A stretch of 24,584 nt of DNA, from positions 53,794 to 78,377 of the IMG/VR virus record IMGVR_UViG_3300002242_000001, one strand, 5' to 3'. The stretch comes from a virus. Shown here piece by piece: positions 4,268 to 24,584 of this stretch (positions are counted from its first letter, which is position 1; every line of letters begins with the position of its first letter). The position numbers and the translations under genes were made by a program. Below the pieces are notes generated by a model. It was given only the letters and a program-made list of their open reading frames with translations, searched no databases and was not told where the DNA came from.

Positions 4268-5074
4268 ATGATCACATTTATTTTAATACTCTTGATCCTG
4301 ATTGGTGTGCATGAGCTCGGCCATCTGGTCGTTGGCAAGATTCTCAAAGTTCATCCCGAAGAATTTTCAATTGGATTCGGCCCAGCCATCCTTAGAAAGA
4401 AGTGGAGAGGTACCACATGGAAACTTGCTGCATTTCCTCTAGGGGGTTACGTTAGATTTAGAGGTGACAAAAATCTCGAGTCAACTGATCCTACATCTTT
4501 TTGGGGCTGCCCACCTTGGAAGAGAGCCGTAATTGCCTTCGCTGGCCCAGCTGTAAATCTGATTTTTCCATTCTTCTTGTACTTCTTTTACGCGTGGGGT
4601 CACGAGGTTCCGAGAGGGCCAGATGATATCCCGCCTCCACCCGGTGCAATCGTTGCGACAATCGACGCACCATGGGCAGCAAATATTTCGTGGAGAATCA
4701 CGACAGATATGTATAGCCAGATGTATGTAGGGTTAAAAGAGATGGTTACCAAGCCGCCCACAAAAGACACAATGGGCGGCCCAGTCATGATCTACGAGAT
4801 GTCGAAAGCGGCAGAAGAAACAACTGTAAAGCAACAAGATGCGGGACATATAATTGATCTACTAGCAATGCTCAGTATTAATCTAGGATTCTTAAATCTT
4901 CTACCCATTCCTGTGCTTGACGGCGGTCATATCGTAACGTCAGGAGTTGAAATGGCAATCAGAAGAAAAATCGGCATTAAGCTTCGTATGCGTCTCGCTC
5001 TGGTGGGAGTAGTACTCTTGCTGTCTATAATGGCGTTTGCAATATACTCAGATGTGCTCAGATATTTCATGTGA
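4268..5074 (+). CDS. Site-2 intramembrane zinc metalloprotease (RseP/M50-like), compact form
   Basis: A 268-residue multi-pass membrane protein of peptidase family M50. The first helix carries the zinc motif HELGH (H15, E16, H19), and FAGPAVN follows at about 91-97. The third metal ligand lies in the C-terminal LDG motif (LLPIPVLDGGH, D218) after a conserved GGPV segment. The regions order as in RseP: TM1 with HExxH, a periplasmic part, then two C-terminal membrane helices. At 268 residues it is far shorter than E. coli RseP (about 450). The section between FAGP and GGPV (about 110-170) is too short for PDZ domains and holds only a proline-rich remnant (IPPPPGAIV). Such proteases cleave anti-sigma factors or other membrane proteins. 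A phage copy might act on the host envelope-stress pathway or process a phage membrane protein. Neither substrate is visible here. Confidence 0.9.
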   Translation: MITFILILLILIGVHELGHLVVGKILKVHPEEFSIGFGPAILRKKWRGTTWKLAAFPLGGYVRFRGDKNLESTDPTSFWGCPPWKRAVIAFAGPAVNLIFPFFLYFFYAWGHEVPRGPDDIPPPPGAIVATIDAPWAANISWRITTDMYSQMYVGLKEMVTKPPTKDTMGGPVMIYEMSKAAEETTVKQQDAGHIIDLLAMLSINLGFLNLLPIPVLDGGHIVTSGVEMAIRRKIGIKLRMRLALVGVVLLLSIMAFAIYSDVLRYFM

Positions 5075-7109: not shown

Positions 7110-10100
7110 TTGTCATTCAAGAATTTTAAAGTACCGAACCGATTTGTAGGCTTGCACGGCCACTCAGGGTTCTCAACATACGATGGCTTAGGCTATCCGG
7201 CTGATCATATTGATTTTGTTCTTGAGAATCAAATGGATGCCTGGGGCTTGACAGATCACGGCCACGGGTCAGGCCTCGCTCATGCTCACAAGCACTTTCA
7301 GAAGATGAAAAAAGCAGGTAGGAAATACCGCCAGGTTTACGGTGTTGAGTTCTATTTCGTCGAAGACTTAGATGAGTGGAAGAGACAATATGAAGGCCAT
7401 CGTGAGCGTATCAAGGCAGAGCGAGATGCAAAAAAAATCGAGTCTCTATCCACTACTGATGTCAATGTCGACAATGAAGACGAGCTCATGTCTGAGGGTC
7501 ACACGATTGAAAACGAGGACGAGACAAAGCAAGACTCTGGCGGTAAGCCTGAGTGGATGCGCAGATATCATTTGGTTGTAACTGCCCGCACGCCAAAAGG
7601 ATTAGCTAATTTATTTACGCTTGTTAAGCGCGGATTTCGAGACGGATTTTATCGATTCCCAAGAATCGATTTCAAGATGCTCAAGGAGTACGGAGAAGGC
7701 TTAAGCGTCTCATCCGCATGTGTAGGAGGAATCTTTAGTGGTCGCACATTTCAAGAATTTCCGGGTCTTTCTTTTAACGAGCTCGGGCCTGAACTCTTAG
7801 ATGATCCCGAAAAGAAAAAGCGCCTGATGTCCACGCTCGGAAATCTTACTGATAGGTTTGTCGATGCTGTCGGAGAAGAAAACTTCTTTTATGAGCTACA
7901 GTTTAACAAACTTTCAGCCCAGCATATGGTTAATCGCGCTCTGATAGAGCTTCATGACCAAACAGGAGTTAATCTTATTACGACTTGTGATTCTCATTAT
8001 CCGACTCCGAACAAGTGGGAAGCCCGAGAGCTTTATAAGAAGCTAGGCTGGATGGGCAAGGAAATGACCCCTCTGCCAGAGTTTGAAGAGCTCAAGTGCG
8101 AGCTATATCCCAAGAATGCTTCCCAAATCTGGGAGGAGTTTGAGCTTGGCTGGGATCAATACGATTTCTACAAGGGTCGAGAAGAGCTAATAAGCAATAG
8201 CATTGAACGTACCCACGATCAAGTCTGGGATCGCTATGAGGATATGTGGGTAGATTCAAAGGCTAAGCTGCCGAATTACGCTCTGCCTCAAAAGAGTCAT
8301 CCCAGTTACCCTTCTGCGCCCGATGAAACACCATTTCAGCAGCTAGCAATCAAAGTAAAGAATGCAATGATCAGCACTGGCCTAGCAGCTAAGCCTGAAT
8401 ATGTTGCTCGTGTTAAGGAAGAGCTGGACGATATCAAGTTTCTTGGGTTTGAGAATTACTTCTTGACTATGCATGACGTGTTTCACATGGCTGCGGAAAA
8501 AACCCTGTTTGGACCGGCTCGAGGTTCTGGTGGCGGTTCCCTTGTTAACTTTCTTTTAGGGTATCACCCAAATACGATCCAATTCCATATGGTCTGCTCT
8601 GGTCACGCTTCCTCGGCCGACACCGGACTTCTTGGCCAGACATCGATTCAGATGCTGGTGACCGGGATGCTTTGATCGATGCAGCCAGAGAGTTATTTGG
8701 TGAAGATGCAGTTATTCCTGTGTCTAATTTCAATACACTTAAACTCAAGTCGATTGTTAAAGATGTTGCTAAGTTTTATGATGTTCCTTTTCTAAGAGGT
8801 AAATGCTCTTACTGGACCTCTCCAGTCTGAAGTCGAGCCCCACGCTCGCGACGCCAATACTGAGAAATCTGTGTTCGTGCTTACACACGAGGACTGCATG
8901 AAATTTTCCAAGAAATACAAGGAGTTCATGGAGAAGTATCCAGATGTTGAGAAGCATGTGAGTACTTTGTTTATGGAGCAGAGATCTATTGGCCGACACG
9001 CCGGGGGTGTTCTAATTGCCGATGAGCGTGAACTTGAACAAACAATGCCGCTGATATCAGTTCGAGGTGATTTACAGACACCGTGGACTGAAGGAATGAA
9101 CTTCCGAAACTTAGAGGACAATGGTTTTATTAAGTTCGATTTCCTCGGTCTTACGCTAATGAAGGATGTGGAGAACTGCATCAAGCGCGTCTTGATAACC
9201 CAAGGAAACCCAAGTCCAACTTTCTTACAAATCAGAGATTTCTTTGACAAGCATTTAAATTGTAGGAACGTCTTGCAAGATGATCAAAAAGTCTGGCAAA
9301 ACACGTACCACAATTCAGATTTCGCCCCAGGGATATTCCAATTTACTGCCCAGGGAGCCAGAAACTTCTGTATGCAAGCCCAGCCTAGGAATATTGAGGA
9401 GCTTGCTGCTATCACAGCTATTTACCGACCAGGCCCCCTCAAAGCAAATGTTCATATCAAGTATGTCGAAGCCGGAAAAGATATTGACAGCATCATCTAT
9501 GATCACCCAGTGATTGAGAAGATTCTCGGCCCGACAAGAGGTTTCATTACTTTTCAAGAACAGTTTATGAGTCTTGCAGTTGAATTGGCAGGTTTCACCC
9601 CCGGTGAGTCTGACAAGATGAGAAAAACCTTAGTGAAGAAGTCGCTAGATACTATCGGCAAAAAAGGCTCAGAAAGAGATCAGCTACGAAAGCAATTCGT
9701 GGAAGGCGCCGAACGACTTCACGAGCTGGATCCTAAGATTACACATGCACTTTTTGACAAGATTGAGTTCTTCTCACTGTACGGATTTAACAAGTCACAC
9801 GCTGTTGCCTACGCTATTGACAGCTATTACGCCGCCTGGTTGTACACCTACTATCCCGACCAGTGGATCGCAACAGTTCTAGAATCTGAGAATAATTCTC
9901 CTCAAGGTCTGTCCAAAGCTATTCGTGAATCTAAGGCTCTTGGGTGTGAATTCGTTCCAGCAGATATTAACTACTCTGGAGATGAGTGGAACTACAATAC
10001 CGATCGACAGGCGTTTATCCCGCCTCTCTCTTCTATTAAGGGTCTAGGCGACAAGGCAATGGATGAAATTCTTGCTTCTCGACCCTTCAAGAGTTTAAAT

Positions 10101-11042
10101 GACTTGTTTTATGATGAAAGAGGAGAGTGGAGACACTCAAAAGTCAATAAGACATGCTTTGAAGCCTTGTGTCAAATCGAAGCCTTTTCTTCTCTCGAGG
10201 AATTCCGAGAAGGAAAGCTGGAAAATCACCGACAGCTTCTACAGATAATTTCTGACAACTATGAAAATATTCGAAAGGGCCGAGCTGCTGAGTCAAAACT
10301 CCGTGAGCGCCTAGCTAGGATTGGTGAGCAAATCAAGGATGAGTTTGACAAAGCCTTAAGAGTCTATGAAAAAACCAAGATGAACGACCTCCTTGACCAG
10401 GCAAACCAGCACATTTACAACTGCAGCATTGTAGATTGGTGCTACAGCGAACATGCAGCAGACTTACTCAAGGATATCGGGCATCCAAACCACAAGAGAC
10501 AGCTCCAGATTGACAAGTGCTTTGATAGACTACAAAACTATTATGAGCGCCGTGATAAGATTTCTTCTAGGATCGACGATCTTTTTGACATCGACTCCGC
10601 GATGCTTGGAGTTTCACACATCAAGGACTGGTCTCGAGATGAGAAGATAGTATTGTACCAGCAAATAACGTCAGCTATTAATAACGAGCTAGTTTTTCCC
10701 GAAGAAGTAATGAAACGAATTGAAAAAGCAGATGTAAGGTCTGTCTGTGAAATGACTGGGGGAGACAAAGGAGTGGCGTGGGGATGTGCAGCTGAGATTG
10801 TCAAGAAAAAGACTAAGAACGGCAAAGACTTTTATCGCATGAGAATGATGGATGATCAGAATCGTACATCCTGGCTTCGGGTTTGGGGCAAGTTTTTTGA
10901 TTGGGGTGAAGAACGAGGGCAAAAGATTTATTATGAACCTAAACCTTTTACATACTGGCTTATGGAGACAGAAGTTGATCCTAACTGGGGTGCTTCGACT
11001 GCCTCGTGGAAGATGAGAAAGATTCCACTCTATGATGATTAA
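7110..11042 (+). CDS. dnaE: DNA polymerase III alpha subunit, DnaE type with PHP domain (two frame breaks)
   Basis: Replicative family C DNA polymerase, about 1310 residues when corrected. The TTG start at 7110 follows AGGAG. The N-terminal PHP domain has HGH (16-18), TDHG (about 48-51) and later DSHYPTP. The palm has GPARGSGGGS (about 469), then PDIDSD (about 510-515) and FDFLGL (D about 677), giving the three catalytic aspartates. A finger region with GFNKSHAVAYA and a C-terminal OB-like part follow. Between finger and OB domain lies a long charged, coiled-coil-like stretch (about 1030-1180). The frame changes twice. After LLLG-type FLLG at 8559-8561 a -1 shift gives PKYDPIPYGLLWSRFL. Near 8792-8798 a +1 shift restores VNALTGPLQSEVEPHARDA. 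One G added to GGG at 8559-8561 and one A removed at 8794-8795 yield an uninterrupted polymerase. All catalytic residues are present. Confidence 0.95.
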
Positions 11043-11226
11043 GGCTGGAGATCTAGTTAGAGTAACTAAAACTGCAGTTCAAGACAGTCGGTTCATCAAG
11101 AAGGTCGGGGTCTTAGTTAGTGACAATGGTGTCGATGACTGCGGCCATCCAGAAGTGTTCATTCTGGTAGAAGGTAATATAATATGTGTATATCCGGACG
11201 GGTATGAGCTAGTGGAGAAGATTTGA
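11032..11226 (+). CDS. Small SH3-like protein
   Basis: A 64-residue beta-rich protein whose ATG overlaps the polymerase stop by 11 bases; ATG 11035 is an equally good start. GDLVRVTK, KVGVLVSDNG and a closing YPDGYELVEK give the pattern of a small SH3-like barrel, often seen as filler proteins in large phages. It ends in a TGA that overlaps the TTG start of the next gene. Function unknown. Confidence 0.7.
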   Translation: MMIKAGDLVRVTKTAVQDSRFIKKVGVLVSDNGVDDCGHPEVFILVEGNIICVYPDGYELVEKI

Positions 11227-12132
11227 TTACGTTTCCCGTGAATAAAATTGCCCTCGAAGGAACAGATCTCAGCGGCAAAACAACACTGTACAATGAGATA
11301 CATAAAAAATCAGGATTCAGATGGAACATGGATGATCGCTCGGGGCTGTCTATGTGTGTTTATTCCAGCCTTTACAATCGAGATGATTTCTATGCTAGGA
11401 AAAATCTTGAATTTAGAGATGTCAAATCTAAACAACCAGTTCCTTCTTTTATACCCAGCTTTAAATGTTCTTCAAGACAGGTTCTTAAGTCGAGGTGATG
11501 AAATACAGGATATCAATTCTCTTCATGAGCTTTATGTTCTTTTTGGCAAAGAGTTCGAAAAGTATTGTATGCTACCTAATTTTCATGTATTCCAGACGGG
11601 AAGCGCAAAAGATCAGGCAAGAGAGATCGTCAGACGGTTGCGACAGATGGAAAATATGACTGCAGAGAATATCGGAAACTATGTGCATGAGTTTGTAAAG
11701 TTTCAACCTGGCAAAGAATCAAATACAGTGCAGTTCCAATTCTACGATGATGGAACTTTTTCTACTGCTTCCGAGGCTATTATGAATACTCGTGGCGAGG
11801 AAGAGTATTATAGTAGTATTAAGCAGGCTTTCTTACAAAAGATTCAAGATGAAATCGAGGGAAGAAACCACTATAGCCGGAAAGAAACAATAGAATCCAG
11901 AAGATTTGTTTATGCAGGCGAAGAGTGTATTTCTTTCATTCAAGCGATAGTTAGAAACGACCTATTAGATGTGCATGCAGTGTTTAGGTCTTCAGACACA
12001 GGAAATAAGACTGGTACTGATATTCAATTCGTCCACTATTTAGGCAGAGAGGCTGCAAGAATGCTCAGATTGAACTCTAGAGATTATCGAGCCCGCTTCC
12101 GGTTTAACATAAACAGTGCACACATTGTTTAA
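11223..12132 (+). CDS. dNMP kinase fused to thymidylate synthase-family domain, probably dCMP-acting (frameshifted)
   Basis: About 302 residues after correction. The TTG start at 11223 follows GTGGAGAAG. The N-terminal part is a P-loop nucleotide kinase, with EGTDLSGKTT at about 12-21 and DRFLSRGDE later. The frame changes near 11421-11431, where removing one A gives NNQFLLLYPALNVLQDRF in frame. The C-terminal part matches the core of the thymidylate synthase family by spacing: Cys236, Gln five residues on, Arg256-Ser-Ser-Asp259 (20 and 23 residues after the Cys, as in C146, R166, D169 of E. coli ThyA), and a final SAH. The residue aligned with ThyA Asn177 is Asp (GTDI, codon at 12019). In the family, Asp here marks dCMP-specific enzymes such as T4 dCMP hydroxymethylase. 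The folate-binding N-terminus is reduced and the ThyA Tyr209 equivalent is Val, so catalysis is unproven. Confidence 0.75.
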
Positions 12133-12143
12133 ACGGGTGTAAT

Positions 12144-12572
12144 ATGGCAAATAAGAAACTCCGAATAGGATTTACATGTAGCAGCTTCGATCTTCTTCAT
12201 CCTGGGCATATTGTCATGCTAAAGGATTGTAAAAATGTTTGTGACTACTTAATTGTTGGATTGCAAACAGATCCTACTATTGATCGAAAAAATAAGAATA
12301 AACCAGTTCAAACGTTTGAAGAGAGAGAGATCATGATTAACTCAATTAAGCATGTTGACGAAGTTGTCAAATATGAGACTGAGTCTGATCTATATGATTT
12401 GATGGTCCGACTAAATCCTGATGTTAGAATTCTTGGGACAGACTGGAAAGACAAGGAATACACCGGGCACAATCTTGATATTGAAATTTACTGGCACAAC
12501 AGAGACCATGACTGGTCAACATCAGGCTTAAGAAACAGAATTTATCTTGCTGAGCTGGGTAAAAAATCCTGA
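12144..12572 (+). CDS. Cytidylyltransferase-family enzyme (TagD/RfaE-N-like)
   Basis: A 142-residue nucleotidyltransferase of the HxGH superfamily. SSFDLLHPGH gives the signature (H19, H22). ER at about 59-60 and the C-terminal STSGLRNRI (about 124-132) match the ISTSxxxRR-type motif of glycerol-3-phosphate cytidylyltransferase and ADP-heptose synthase relatives. The length fits a stand-alone transferase. It would activate a sugar, polyol or alcohol phosphate with CTP or ATP. The substrate cannot be read from sequence. It starts 11 bases after the kinase/TS fusion and stops 10 bases before the epimerase gene, so the three are probably one transcription unit. Confidence 0.85.
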   Translation: MANKKLRIGFTCSSFDLLHPGHIVMLKDCKNVCDYLIVGLQTDPTIDRKNKNKPVQTFEEREIMINSIKHVDEVVKYETESDLYDLMVRLNPDVRILGTDWKDKEYTGHNLDIEIYWHNRDHDWSTSGLRNRIYLAELGKKS

Positions 12573-12582
12573 GGAGAAATAA

Positions 12583-13512
12583 ATGATACGAAGAGCATTA
12601 GTCACCGGAGCAGCCGGATTTATTGGAAGCAATTTAGTTCGAAGGCTTCTCACAGAAGGGTGGGATGTCACTGGGGTAGATGATCTTAGTTCTGGAAGCT
12701 TAGATCTCATTGAAGGTTGCAAAGGCCTTAGGCTTGTGATCAATGACTTTGCCAGTGAGGTAATTTTAACCGAGGTTCAAAGCAAGGAATTTGATGTCGT
12801 TTTCCATCTTGCAGCAATTCCAAGAGTAAGCTACTCAGTCGAGCACCCTGCAAAGACAACTTTAGTAAATGTTGCAGGAACGTGTGCTTTGATGGAGGCA
12901 TGCCGAGGAAATATCGACAGGTTTGTGTACTCCTCCTCATCGTCAGTTTACGGTGGCGCCGACCAAATGCCCACTCCTGTTACTCATGAACGAGATCCAA
13001 AATCACCTTACGCGTGGCAGAAATCTTCTAACGAGGATCTTCTTCGAATGTTTGGAAAGTTATATGATTTTGACTCTGTGTGCTTGCGCTACTTTAATGT
13101 TTTTGGCCCAAATCAGATGGGAGATTCCCCTTATTCAACAGCTATCTCTGCGTGGTGTCATGCGGTAAAGGAAGGGCTGCCTCTTCGCAAGGACGGCTCC
13201 GGAGAACAGAGTAGAGACATGTGCTATGTTGACAATGTCGTAGATGTTAATATACGAGCAGCGAATCATGAAGGTACTTTTAGAGGTGAACCTTTTAACG
13301 TGGCATGTGGCGATCGAACCAGCAACAACCAGATTCTCGAAGCATTTCAAGAGAGGTTTGGTAGTCTAGAAATTGATCAAGCTCCATTCCGTCCGGGAGA
13401 TGTAATGCACACTCAGGCAGATATTTCAGAAACAGAACGAGTATTTGGGTACAAGCCGCTTGTTCGTTTTTGGGAAGGATTAGAGAAGACGTTTGAGTGG
13501 TGGGATATTTAA
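12583..13512 (+). CDS. NAD-dependent NDP-sugar epimerase/dehydratase
   Basis: A 309-residue extended short-chain dehydrogenase/reductase. The N-terminal Rossmann motif GAAGFIG (9-15) binds NAD. SSSSVYGG is followed by the catalytic YAWQK (Y143, K147), and a conserved RYFNVFGPNQ segment follows. This pattern is that of UDP-glucose 4-epimerases and related nucleotide-sugar epimerases/dehydratases. The GGAG site at 12572-12575 supports the start. With the cytidylyltransferase it suggests synthesis of an activated sugar, for modification of DNA, virion glycans or the host surface. No glycosyltransferase is present in this window. Confidence 0.9.
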   Translation: MIRRALVTGAAGFIGSNLVRRLLTEGWDVTGVDDLSSGSLDLIEGCKGLRLVINDFASEVILTEVQSKEFDVVFHLAAIPRVSYSVEHPAKTTLVNVAGTCALMEACRGNIDRFVYSSSSSVYGGADQMPTPVTHERDPKSPYAWQKSSNEDLLRMFGKLYDFDSVCLRYFNVFGPNQMGDSPYSTAISAWCHAVKEGLPLRKDGSGEQSRDMCYVDNVVDVNIRAANHEGTFRGEPFNVACGDRTSNNQILEAFQERFGSLEIDQAPFRPGDVMHTQADISETERVFGYKPLVRFWEGLEKTFEWWDI

Positions 13513-13561: not shown

Positions 13562-15508
13562 ATGGGTGGAATCGCATTCAAAGATGATGAGGGAAATTCT
13601 CTAGCTAGCGAAGTTGAACGAAAATACGTCGTTCCAACCCTTGAGGATTTATTCCAAAATCACTTAGAACCAGCAGGGGTAACAGCATACGAACCTGTCG
13701 GCTCAACCGGAAAGAAGTCTCTAGCAGGAGACTTAGATATTGCAGTTCATTTTAATGGTGACGACCCAAAACAAGTAAAGCAACTACTGTTTAGGAATCT
13801 TGCTTCTACGCTTGACCCTGACATGATTAAAGTAATCGGTCCCAATCTTACTATTCTTTACCCGATTAAAGACGACCCACAAAGCCGCCTCGCCCAGGTT
13901 GACTTGATGATCGCTGCAGATCTAACAGGGACAGCTTGGCTTATGTCCGGAACGGGGGATGAGGGAATAAAAGGAATATTCAGAAATATTATGCTTTCTC
14001 ATATTGCAGCCGAGAGAAGCAAACAGATGGACCCCCGTGAAAAGATTACAGTTGCCACACCAGGCGGCCTAGGAAAACTCCAGCTTGATCCTAGTTTAGA
14101 TCCAAGCCTTCCTAAGAATAAAAGAAAGTTTAAGCTTGTCGGCAGCCGAACTACTAATCCTCAAGAAATTTTAAAAGGATTAGGGATTAGCGCATCCCCT
14201 GCAGAGGTGTCCACGTTTGATGGTCTCGTTGATGTAATGACACAAGATCCTGAATTGAAAAGCATGCTCGTTACATTCAGTGACTATTTAAGCCAGCGAG
14301 CAGGAACATTACAACACCCACAGTTCCAGCGAGTATTGTCGTACGTGGATAAATCAATGAGTGAAAACGTAATTAGAAAGACGATCAGATTAATAATGGA
14401 GAAAGAGATGAAGAAATCTCAAATAAATGAAAAGCTTGTCCAAATAGGAGACGAAGAGCTTTATGATCTAACAGACGATAATCTTGAAGCACTTCGGACG
14501 TTTATTCGCGCTGAGCTTAAGGTTAACCAGTATGATCCCGACGAATCCCGACAAGGATATATTGATGCGATCGATGCAGTGAGAGGTGACGCACAGTTCT
14601 CAGATGCAATAGGTAAATACCCAGCGGATTATAAGAAGCTGGTTCTCGATTACTTAATGAAGATTGAAGACGGGCCTGAGAAGATCGCCCCAATGCTGTT
14701 TTCTCTCTCTGCTGGAAATTCATCACCAGTAGACATCAAACCGCAGTTTTTAGACATACTTCACTACAATGAAGGGCAAGGTCTCGGTCGAGGCGAACTT
14801 TTAACACCGCTTCTTTACGATAAGTCTTCTTGGGTCGGAGGTGCATCAGCTACTCACGATGTGGATATCGGAGATCAAGCCTGGGAAATTAAGCATCACA
14901 GATCTTTCAACGAACCTTTCGTTTTTGGCGGTGGCGCAAAATCTTTCTTTAGATCCCCCAATGCATTAGCTAAAGCTATATCTGACACGGGATACGACGT
15001 CAGCCAATTACAGACAATGGGAAGAGATGAGAGCCTAAAGGCAATCAAGGATATTGTTGACAATTACAAGCCCGTTTTAGAAGGTCAGCCCATCGATTCT
15101 GTTGGAAAGATGCTTTATCTCTTGGACGCAGTTGCTCGAGAACATGTTCTTCCTCACGGTGAAGCAGGAGTTCTGCTGTACCAGTCTAAATCAGCCGCTG
15201 GCTCTCCAACAAAGACAAGATTCGTTGATAAGGATGATCTTCGTTTTTACGCTTTCGGTGGAAGAAAGACAGGAAGATATCTTCTATACGCACCCGACCA
15301 GATCGAGCCTCCACGAGAAGCAGCATTCGGAGCAGCTTTATTTGACGAAGAAGCCGAAGAGGAAAAAGCAGAACCAGAAGCAGCCGACACCCCTGACCTG
15401 CCTGAAGAATCTCAAGAAGCCGAAGTAGAAGAGGAATCTGAGGAAGAGAATCTAAATGAGTCCTCACAAAATCGATGGCAACTTTTAGCAGGCATAGAAA
15501 ATGTCTAA
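13562..15508 (+). CDS. Large protein with nucleotidyltransferase-like N-terminus and PD-(D/E)XK-like region
   Basis: A 648-residue protein with a GGAG site. The N-terminal 120 residues show a polymerase-beta-type nucleotidyltransferase pattern: GSTGKKSLAGDLDI (47-60, with D57 and D59) and AQVDLMIAA (D114) as the third acidic ligand. A helical middle region (150-370) follows. Residues about 405-450 read GRGELL, HDVDIGDQAWEIKHH, giving E412, D433/D435 and E442-x-K444. That spacing resembles PD-(D/E)XK nuclease folds. The C-terminus is a long Glu-rich acidic tail (about 590-630) followed by ENLNESS and NRWQLLAGIE. I do not recognise a named family. The two fold suggestions rest on motif spacing only. 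It overlaps the next gene by 8 bases, and both may act together or be virion-packaged. Confidence 0.6.
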   Translation: MGGIAFKDDEGNSLASEVERKYVVPTLEDLFQNHLEPAGVTAYEPVGSTGKKSLAGDLDIAVHFNGDDPKQVKQLLFRNLASTLDPDMIKVIGPNLTILYPIKDDPQSRLAQVDLMIAADLTGTAWLMSGTGDEGIKGIFRNIMLSHIAAERSKQMDPREKITVATPGGLGKLQLDPSLDPSLPKNKRKFKLVGSRTTNPQEILKGLGISASPAEVSTFDGLVDVMTQDPELKSMLVTFSDYLSQRAGTLQHPQFQRVLSYVDKSMSENVIRKTIRLIMEKEMKKSQINEKLVQIGDEELYDLTDDNLEALRTFIRAELKVNQYDPDESRQGYIDAIDAVRGDAQFSDAIGKYPADYKKLVLDYLMKIEDGPEKIAPMLFSLSAGNSSPVDIKPQFLDILHYNEGQGLGRGELLTPLLYDKSSWVGGASATHDVDIGDQAWEIKHHRSFNEPFVFGGGAKSFFRSPNALAKAISDTGYDVSQLQTMGRDESLKAIKDIVDNYKPVLEGQPIDSVGKMLYLLDAVAREHVLPHGEAGVLLYQSKSAAGSPTKTRFVDKDDLRFYAFGGRKTGRYLLYAPDQIEPPREAAFGAALFDEEAEEEKAEPEAADTPDLPEESQEAEVEEESEEENLNESSQNRWQLLAGIENV

Positions 15509-16098
15509 TATGAAGATTTTAATGGAAGGGTGGAGAACCTTTCTAAATGAGCAAGATGATGACCAGTCGTTTTATTATCACTTGTCACCTGTTAAATTTG
15601 AGCAATTCACCCAGCAGCTCAAGCCGTCGCACATAGCCTCAGAGCCTGGCTTTCACTTCGGGACCAAGAAAACTGCATTAATAGTAGCAGATAAGCTTAG
15701 AAAAGAAGGCAGGGTAAAATCAGGCGATGTGGTCTACCTTTATAAAGTAAATCTTAGTATGACCAACCCCCTAACGAATGCCTGAAAACAGAATGGGATC
15801 CTGGGGTGTCACATCTATTGTTAACGAGATGTTTGAGGGTGAAACTTCATTTTCCCCTACAGACGACCAGCTTGATGAGTTCTATGAAGATGTGATTACG
15901 ACACCCGCTGGTGAGAACTTAAAAGACATGATGTTTGAACCCGACTTAGAAATAAAAGAATTCGTCAGCTGGTTTAATGACCAGGGTTACGACTCAATTG
16001 AGTATGACAATACTTTTGAAGGCGGCGGCACTTCATATGTCGTATTTAAACCAAGTCAAGTTAGCATTATTGACGTTGAGGAATATGAAGTTCCTTAG
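15501..16098 (+). CDS. ADP-ribosyltransferase-like protein (frameshifted)
   Basis: About 198 residues when a single-base frame change near 15769-15777 is corrected. The first frame ends in TGA at 15783-15785. The second frame continues PENRMGSWGVTSIVNEMFEG to a stop at 16096-16098. Removing one A near 15771-15772 gives NPLRMPENRMG, which reads naturally. The fold pattern is that of phage ADP-ribosyltransferase-like proteins: YHLS, then GFHFGTKKTALIVAD, a strand VVYLYKVNL-NPL, and the final GYDSIEYDNTFEGGGTSYVVF followed by PSQ. The N-terminus MKILMEGWRTFLNEQ looks like a short amphipathic peptide ending LNE. The family link is by pattern. Catalysis and substrate are unknown. T4 packages ADP-ribosyltransferases in its head, which is a possible parallel. 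Confidence 0.6.
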
Positions 16099-21300: not shown

Positions 21301-21996
21301 ATGAAAAAGAATGAAGTTGCAGAACTAATTAAAGAGACCCTTACACTTGATAACGATACGAATCAAGAAGAGGTTTTGAATGAGGCTCTTGTAGCGCAAG
21401 TGAAAACGTATACGCTTCCAACTGAAGCGCTGTCACAGGCAAATAAGAAAAATCACTTTGAACTCTATGATGAGTACGTGAAGAGCTTTAATAGAATTAG
21501 CGCTGAGCTTGATGCAGTTTCTCGCTCTAGCGCAAATTCAAATCACTCTCTCTTTAGGTCTCTTAAAATAGATGAGACTTACAACTTAAATGCTGTTTAT
21601 CTTCACGAGCTTTTCTTTGCAAATATTGGTGATCTTCAAAGTGAGATTACAATGGATACTCTTTCATTTATGCGCTTAGAGAGAGACTTCGGATCATTTG
21701 ATGAGTGGCAACGTGATTTTCTAGCCTGCGCAACAGCTTCTCGATGTGGCTGGGTTGTAACAGGTTACAATACTTTTACACGAACATATATGAACTATGT
21801 TATTGATCTTCATTCTCTTAACGTTCCAGTCGGTGTAATTCCCGTGATTGTCATGGATGTTTGGCAGCATGCTTACTACAAAGACTATCTAAAGAACGTG
21901 ACTGAGTACGCAGTCAATATGATGAGGGAATTAAACTGGAACGTAATTGAGAGCCGATTTGAACGAACTGAGAAGATTGCAGAAGTTCTCAAGTAG
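21301..21996 (+). CDS. Fe/Mn superoxide dismutase-like protein
   Basis: A 231-residue protein of the iron/manganese SOD family. The four expected metal ligands can be placed: H52 (NHFELYDEYV), H102 (YLHELFFANIG), D186 and H190 (MDVWQHAYYKDY). Spacings of 50, 84 and 4 residues are close to those of E. coli SodA. The C-terminal LNWNVIESRF also fits the family. A 35-residue N-terminal extension precedes the domain and ends in VLNEAL. Length and ligands argue for a real metalloprotein, but Gln143-type and other second-shell residues were not checked. It could detoxify superoxide, or be a structural protein that kept the fold. Its neighbours are unknown genes, some with similar N-terminal peptides. 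Confidence 0.75.
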   Translation: MKKNEVAELIKETLTLDNDTNQEEVLNEALVAQVKTYTLPTEALSQANKKNHFELYDEYVKSFNRISAELDAVSRSSANSNHSLFRSLKIDETYNLNAVYLHELFFANIGDLQSEITMDTLSFMRLERDFGSFDEWQRDFLACATASRCGWVVTGYNTFTRTYMNYVIDLHSLNVPVGVIPVIVMDVWQHAYYKDYLKNVTEYAVNMMRELNWNVIESRFERTEKIAEVLK

Positions 21997-23823: not shown

Positions 23824-24584
23824 ATGAGTGAATTCGATTTTGTTGATCATTACGAAGACCAGGAGGAGTCTGCTAATCTTCTCCCTGATAACGAAGCAGA
23901 GACTGCTATTAACTGTGCCTTTGTAGGAATCGGCGGAGGTGGATGCAAGATTGCTAAGGCATTTTTAGATTTAGGCTTTACAAAGACTCTTTTAGTCAAT
24001 ACTACAGACAAAGATTTCCAGTCTGGCATCGCCCAAGATCATCTCCTTGCCATGCCAGGAGCTGACGGCGTTGCTAAGAATATTGAGCTGGGGCGCAAGG
24101 TTTTAAATGACAATAGCGCGCTAGTTGAAGATGCATTACGCACTAGGCTCGGAAAAGTCGACTGGCTATTTGTTTGCGCCGGGGGCGGAGGTGGAACAGG
24201 TTCTTCTGCAGCTATTTTAGATCCTGTCTTTAAGAGGTTTCTTGAGATTAATGAAGCATCTGGAAAGGTTGTCTATGTTGTGACCTCCCCTACATCTCAA
24301 GAGAAGCTGAATTCGACAATTAAGAATAACGCAAAGTCGCTTGAGAGTGATGTTAAAACCAACCCACATATTGTACTTGATAATGAACGACAGTTGAATG
24401 CTTTCCGTGGTAAGGTCGGTGTTCTTGGTCTTTATCCTGCTGCTAACAAGGCTTTCGCAAAGATGTTTTGGCAGCTATTGAGACTTGCGTGCGAGCAATC
24501 TCCAATCCAGGCTTTCGACGGAAAAGATCTCGAGAGATTTCTTAGTTCTCCCGGGCGAATGGTGCTAGGATCAGCAATCGTTCA
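23824..24584 (+). CDS. Tubulin/FtsZ-family GTPase, 3' end outside window
   Basis: 253 residues of a tubulin-superfamily protein, open at the window edge. After a 28-residue acidic N-terminus, a Rossmann-like part begins INCAFVGIGGGGCKIAKAF (T1 loop GIGGGGC, 35-41). The GTP-binding signature is AGGGGGTGSSAAI (about 119-131), the tubulin/FtsZ T4 loop. Later segments (VVYVVTSPT, NERQLNAF) fit a GTPase domain. The T7 loop and C-terminal domain needed for GTP hydrolysis in the filament are mostly beyond the window. Phage tubulins (PhuZ, TubZ) build filaments that position replicating DNA in jumbo phages. This one has a G-box closer to FtsZ than the usual PhuZ form, as far as can be seen. A TATAAT and GGATGGAG site precede it. 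Confidence 0.9.
   Translation, partial: MSEFDFVDHYEDQEESANLLPDNEAETAINCAFVGIGGGGCKIAKAFLDLGFTKTLLVNTTDKDFQSGIAQDHLLAMPGADGVAKNIELGRKVLNDNSALVEDALRTRLGKVDWLFVCAGGGGGTGSSAAILDPVFKRFLEINEASGKVVYVVTSPTSQEKLNSTIKNNAKSLESDVKTNPHIVLDNERQLNAFRGKVGVLGLYPAANKAFAKMFWQLLRLACEQSPIQAFDGKDLERFLSSPGRMVLGSAIV

Follow-up and report, generated by a model that had tools for sequence, protein, structure and literature searches.

A P-loop nucleotide kinase fused to a minimal thymidylate-synthase-superfamily domain with a cytosine-type aspartate in a group of viral genomes

The kinase-TS gene and its surroundings

The window analysed here, 24,584 nucleotides long, makes up the final 24.6 kb of a viral record of 78 kb. 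It carries, in the interval from dnaE to a nucleotide-sugar epimerase gene, a gene with a TTG start at 11223 and an end at 12132, in which a P-loop kinase domain precedes a domain that we assign below to the thymidylate synthase (TS) superfamily (Table 1). In the window record this kinase-TS reading frame is broken, because its start and its remainder are read in different frames. The kinase part follows a single frame from the TTG, reading MITFPVNKIALEGTDLSGKTTL...DDRSG, and the rest, from about 11410, lies in another frame, with the switch at about 11.40-11.42 kb (11400-11425). Local frame disruptions were also found in dnaE (8575-8800) and in the gene at 15501-16098 (at about 15770), both of which are intact in relatives. 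This suggests sequence or assembly errors in the record, and such a fault is the simplest reading of the break in the kinase-TS gene. A frame break of biological origin was considered and is not favoured, given these other disruptions, the purifying selection acting on the part after the break and the existence of intact copies of the gene.

Table 1. Features of the kinase-TS locus, in window coordinates
Feature	Position	Strand	Basis
64-aa ORF overlapping both dnaE and the start of the kinase-TS gene, an arrangement of coupled-operon type	11032..11226	+	
N-terminal P-loop nucleotide-kinase domain, YorR/thymidylate-kinase-like, ~140 aa	11223..11640	+	ORFs; intact in L002/L007/L034; hhalign; YorR profile
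Walker A (P-loop) GTDLSGKTT	11259..11285	+	G-D-S-G-K-T-T positions invariant in alignment
DRS motif (DRx of thymidylate kinases)	11334..11342	+	alignment
Lid-like RxxxRGD kinase segment	11479..11499	+	R86, R90-G91-D92 invariant
C-terminal minimal TS-superfamily domain, 161 aa	11647..12129	+	PHROG 160; hhalign and shuffles; AlphaFold; fold matches
SRR, arginines predicted to bind phosphate; relatives donate them across the dimer	11896..11904	+	alignment; role from PMC6400193
Cys, equivalent to the nucleophile of TS (Cys146 of E. coli, Cys148 of T4 dCMP hydroxymethylase)	11926..11928	+	alignment
Gln at +5 from Cys	11941..11943	+	sequence
Arg-Ser-Ser-Asp (TS RSxD, phosphate/ribose site)	11986..11997	+	alignment
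Asp at +31, cytosine-type specificity position (ThyA Asn177, T4 dCMP hydroxymethylase Asp179)	12019..12021	+	invariant in orthologues; PMC5175136, PMC6400193
Asn-Ser-Ala-His end motif, His at +65	12112..12123	+	counterpart of G-x-x-H-x-Y around His207
Cytidylyltransferase-like nucleotidyltransferase	12144..12572	+	PF01467 5e-14; PHROG 7878
Nucleotide-sugar epimerase	12583..13512	+	PF01370 1e-50

Nine IMG/VR loci carry intact orthologues of 303 aa at 66-68% identity, and a distant contig, L034, carries an intact one of 301 aa (38% identity). The domain order was the same in all of them, and the start codon was TTG or GTG where it was read. Thus the fusion is kept down to 38% identity, with dnaE always adjoining and, in every orthologous locus that was read, the epimerase gene beside or near it. 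Purifying selection acts on the TS part, both between the window and L002 (pN 0.21 versus pS 0.88) and between L002 and L007 (pN 0.08 versus pS 0.65). Pattern scans of viral contigs and genome contigs detected no fused members outside ten contigs; tblastn with the TS domain and blastn with the whole gene gave no match in named phages, and the literature searched did not describe a dNMP kinase fused to TS.

Several other genes of the window were recorded. A 648-aa protein encoded at 13562-15508, which adjoins the epimerase in L002 and L007 too, had no Pfam match; its GSTGKKSLAGDLDIAV stretch looks like the start of a nucleotidyltransferase fold. The protein at 21301-21996 has a Fe/Mn superoxide dismutase C-terminal domain (PF02777, 4e-17), and a similar one occurs in the phage of L034. 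A membrane protein of peptidase family M50 (site-2-protease-like) at 4268-5074 is kept in relatives, and a Tubulin/FtsZ-family GTPase (PF00091, 5e-8) at 23824-24584 is cut by the end of the record.

Assignment of the two domains

The kinase domain contains Walker A, DRx and the lid arginines. A family profile, built with related phage kinases, matched YorR (PDB 2axp) with E=4.7e-13 and also matched thymidylate kinases, and all eight of the eight kinase family members matched PHROG 761, thymidylate kinase. By hhalign the domain was related (E=3.6e-16) to the kinases of votkovviruses, namely the pelagiphages HTVC119P and HTVC200P, and S28C10, which are its closest named relatives having a TS partner. 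Related mini-kinases were also present in Geobacillus phage GR1 and a faecal phage, with no TS partner seen adjoining.

The C-terminal part matched PHROG 160 (thymidylate synthase) with E=5.6e-4 in the window and, independently and at the same profile start position, with E=5.2e-5 in L034. Pfam PF00303 did not match the window domain, either by hmmscan even at E 10 or by genome search. When a four-sequence profile of the domain was aligned by hhalign with six Asp-type TS proteins, that is, those with Asp at +31, the score was 41.9 (E=8.5e-6) and all motifs were in register. The best scores of shuffled controls were 23.4 (300 shuffles of one side) and 21.8 (200 of the other), and a reversed target gave 9.6; these shuffles ruled out chance as the source of the motif spacing. 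Cross-comparisons of kinase with TS and of TS with kinase were negative. Against single proteins the profile scored 33.7 with AfhB of Escherichia phage HY126, 30.5 with the TS of pelagiphage HTVC200P, 28.6 with E. coli ThyA and 24.5 with T4 gp42, compared with at most 17.8 for six non-TS proteins of these phages. Such single-sequence comparisons are noisy, because Geobacillus E2 ThyA alone scored 9.0, which is background level, against the 28.6 of its E. coli counterpart. Sequence searches of the PDB returned weak unrelated matches with the full-length profile and nothing with the domain profile or with L034 alone.

Structure prediction pointed in the same direction. AlphaFold modelled the 161-residue window domain with a pLDDT of 79.8, a pTM of 0.78 and the element order of TS. 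In the full-length model the kinase half was of low confidence (pLDDT mostly below 50), so that model was used for the C-terminal part only. The top 50 Foldseek matches in the PDB were all TS-superfamily chains; ranks 1 and 2 were AfhB with dCMP (E=4e-5 and 2.2e-4), followed by MilA and T4 dCMP hydroxymethylase, and ranks 1-6 were all cytidylate enzymes. VIA-align gave Z values of 9.3 for MilA (145 of the 161 residues, 4.0 Å), 9.2 and 8.9 for AfhB and about 8 for ThyA, differences below 1 counting as ties, with 138-145 residues spanned for AfhB and MilA. Most TM-scores by query lay at 0.4-0.56, a moderate level that a trimmed fold would be expected to give. AfhB was thus the top match of the window domain in both Foldseek and single-sequence hhalign, although its lead over the pelagiphage TS was small by hhalign and VIA Z was tied. 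Taken together, orthologues, profiles and structure prediction support membership of the domain in the TS superfamily with a cytosine-type Asp, and they bear out the sequence-only reading that a P-loop kinase and a TS-family domain are combined in one chain.

Active-site residues and possible functions

We found all of the catalytic residues listed by the sequence-only reading at the spacing it gave, from the Cys through Gln +5, Arg-Ser-x-Asp at +20 to +23 and Asp +31 to the S-A-H ending at +65, and the SRR phosphate motif can be added to them. Across the family, from the window to L034, no change is seen at any of the nine TS-site residues, among them the SRR pair. As 55 of the 163 alignment columns are invariant, all nine would be so by chance with a probability of about 4e-5, a figure calculated on the few sequences available. 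The nucleophile of T4 dCMP hydroxymethylase is Cys148; protonation of cytosine at N3 depends critically on Asp179, and the phosphate is held by Arg123' and Arg124' of the partner subunit (PMC6400193). The specificity position is Asp in MilA, BcmA and T4 CH and Asn in TS and the SPO1 dUH, so that, as a rule, enzymes acting on cytosine have Asp and those acting on uracil have Asn (PMC5175136). Because of this division the cytosine-type reading of Asp +31, which had been proposed earlier and is invariant in the orthologues, is well founded.

The invariant set of the Asp-type TS proteins comprises Glu, Trp, Tyr-Gly, Gln, Arg, Cys, Arg-Ser-x-Asp, Gly, Asp, His and Tyr. In the window family, Arg-Arg, Cys, Arg-Ser-x-Asp, Asp and His are retained, whereas the N-terminal Glu, Trp and Tyr-Gly are missing, as are the final Tyr and the LG glycine. 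By sequence alignment, Glu58/Glu60, Tyr94/96-Gly and Tyr209 have no counterpart in any aligned member, and the Tyr209 position is occupied by Ile, Val or Leu. Also absent are the C-terminal tail and some 55-70 residues in which relatives have their folate site, so that most of this site is gone. The earlier remarks that the folate part is short and Tyr209 replaced therefore hold. Loss of the tail alone is no objection to activity, because T4 dCMP hydroxymethylase also lacks the tail of ThyA (PMC6400193).

These residues bear directly on a fused counterpart of T4 gp42 and gp1, that is, a folate-dependent dCMP hydroxymethylase and a hydroxymethyl-dCMP kinase in one chain. Asp +31, Cys, RSxD and SRR are as in gp42, which shares the lack of a tail (PMC6400193) and is among the structural matches. 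On the other hand, Glu60, described with Glu58 as conserved throughout TS/CH/dCH members (PMC6400193), and Tyr96-Gly are without counterparts, the segment with most of the folate contacts is absent, and AfhB, the closest single protein, uses chemistry other than folate hydroxymethylation. Nor was a MazG-type dCTPase found in the four records searched, which are fragments. As read from the alignment, the missing Glu and Tyr would be a real objection to a folate-dependent dCMP (hydroxy)methylase. Without catalytic Glu, Tyr-Gly and most of the folate site, the T4-style enzyme is not the best reading, and we consider it unlikely. The earlier proposal of a dCMP (hydroxy)methylase with a kinase is thus upheld for the fusion, the TS fold and the cytosine-type Asp, but finds no support at residue level for a folate-dependent enzyme; likewise structure prediction, which had been put forward as its check, recovered the fold while the alignment lacks most of the folate site.

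Genome content was relevant to an ordinary dTTP supply, in which a reduced thymidylate synthase would be coupled to a thymidylate kinase. The kinase does resemble thymidylate kinases, and dCMP deaminase, dUTPase and thymidine kinase are encoded in the same genome, together with nucleoside deoxyribosyltransferase, RNR and IMP dehydrogenase (RNR, dUTPase and IMP dehydrogenase were read from translations). However, every member has Asp and not Asn at +31, the catalytic Glu and Tyr are missing, and dTMP synthesis is already covered, since five of the six searched records contain ThyX. No DHFR, on which ThyA depends for regeneration of its folate, was found in the records searched. A dUMP/dTMP enzyme is accordingly the reading to which we give least weight, and it is very improbable.

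The ThyX genes include a divergent form, with RHRAGT instead of RHRxxS, that is common to the phage group; it lies upstream of the window (G000:C1:48744-49289; L024:10615-11580). In the phage of L034 a divergent ThyX occurs beside a canonical one (G001:12398-13021 and 27826-28386). The best named match of the divergent form is in Geobacillus phage GR1 (49%), where a deoxyribosyltransferase and a glycosyltransferase are located near it, and the same genome as L024:10615-11580 carries a nucleoside 2-deoxyribosyltransferase (L024:12617-13054) and a second nucleotide-sugar epimerase (L024:13933-14904). Phage SP-15 has two Thy1 proteins, one of them hypothesised to be a hydroxymethyluridylate synthase (PMC5977210).

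Loss of so much of the active site could also mean that the TS-like domain is catalytically dead, binding dCMP or dUMP/dTMP through its kept residues and serving the dNMP kinase as a dimerisation and allosteric or substrate-delivery module. Consistent with such a cytidylate-sensing kinase, the domain has lost Glu58/60, Tyr94-Gly, Tyr209 and most of its folate-binding segment but has kept its nucleotide-binding residues invariant, and ThyX already supplies dTMP. Yet the Cys nucleophile is invariant to 38% identity, which mere binding would not need, and the Asp-type TS genes adjacent to the votkovvirus kinases look catalytically complete. We consider a sensor, which is close to the regulatory or partner subunit named as an alternative in the sequence-only reading, to be a serious but doubtful possibility. 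Both a cytidylate-binding regulatory role and AfhB-like C5 hydroxylation fit at least as well as a T4-style hydroxymethylase.

The reading that we tentatively prefer, at somewhat under even confidence, is an enzyme that modifies dCMP at C5 by non-classical chemistry of the AfhB kind and feeds the fused kinase. The C-terminal domain would dimerise and bind dCMP, with SRR and RS on the phosphate and Asp +31 on the cytosine base. The conserved Cys would attack C6 and so activate C5, an oxygen group would be put on C5 without a classical folate site, as in the AfhB dCMP hydroxylase, and the kinase would phosphorylate this modified dCMP to the diphosphate on its way into phage DNA. What we infer here is the substrate, the cofactor, the chemistry at C5 and the coupling of both activities; the analysis as a whole suggests that the kinase-TS protein makes and activates an unusual DNA letter. 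The neighbouring nucleotidyltransferase may carry out a sugar-nucleotide step, and its association with the epimerase is suggestive, by analogy, of 5-hydroxycytosine glycosylation systems. GT1/GT2 glycosyltransferases (PF00534, PF00535) were not found in the four, partial records searched. More speculatively, and in our estimate rather improbably, a minimal TS-fold domain would perform C5 chemistry on dCMP without Glu/Tyr or folate and pass a 5-substituted dCMP straight to the kinase, and the phage group may then have a cytosine modification not seen before.

Since Pfam search misses the domain, the phages of this group would seem to have no genes for cytosine modification. If active, the protein would be a strikingly small TS-fold enzyme in which the catalytic Glu and the folate site are dispensable, and the fusion would point to a modified dCMP that needs phosphorylation; if inactive, it would be a TS-derived cytidylate sensor grafted onto a kinase. 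In both cases it is connected with the recently discovered ability of TS-superfamily enzymes to hydroxylate dCMP.

Comparison with known systems

AfhB (PDB 9iqu, 9iqc and 9ir2) is called a dCMP hydroxylase, and a monooxygenase with dCMP and FAD, in the titles of 9iqu and 9iqc; within the TS superfamily it is probably a synthase of 5-hydroxy-dCMP. According to PMC13390438, such synthases exist in phages and in Mosigvirus occur with epimerase and NTP-transferase genes. The window domain shares with AfhB the TS fold, a dCMP site with Cys, SRR, RS and Asp +31, the SAH end motif (the AfhB fragment ends VSAHVFER, with SAHVF at that position), a short C-terminus and the lack of the LG glycine. AfhB differs in being a stand-alone protein of 217-234 aa with no kinase and about 70 more residues in its N-terminal half, and in having RSQN where the window has RSSD. 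It also keeps Glu (AEDFW) and Tyr-Gly (FYG), both apparently absent from the window protein, and for this reason the full AfhB chemistry is not assured.

T4 gp42 (PDB 1b5e, 6a9a) resembles the domain in Asp +31, the Cys nucleophile, SRR, RSxD, the near-terminal His and the lack of a ThyA tail, but it has Glu60, Tyr96 and a folate site, its kinase is the separate gp1, and it matches Pfam PF00303, which the window domain does not. The CMP 5-hydroxymethylase MilA (PDB 5b6e) has the highest or tied structural Z and Asp at the same position; it is a ribonucleotide enzyme with Glu68, an extra helical C-terminal region and no kinase. For the kinase domain, YorR of SPbeta (PDB 2axp, 3kb2) is the best PDB sequence match and shares the P-loop, DRx and lid segments, whereas YorR and thymidylate kinases are stand-alone proteins of at least 173 aa with a longer NMP-binding region.

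The votkovviruses carry what looks like a split version of the fusion, in which a mini-kinase gene overlaps an Asp-type TS-family gene. It differs in consisting of two genes and in having a full-size TS of 252-282 aa with catalytic Glu and Tyr-Gly. Three of these genes (L011:3434-4282, L055:2961-3779 and L054:4479-5237) are annotated as thymidylate synthase, have Asp at the specificity position and overlap the mini-kinase; they are possibly mis-annotated cytidylate enzymes, and re-examination of the pelagiphage genes so annotated is suggested. In S28C10 the pair is flanked by an NTP pyrophosphohydrolase and a dCMP deaminase. Of the evidence from nature, this two-gene module makes the strongest case for a kinase and a cytidylate-type TS acting in sequence.
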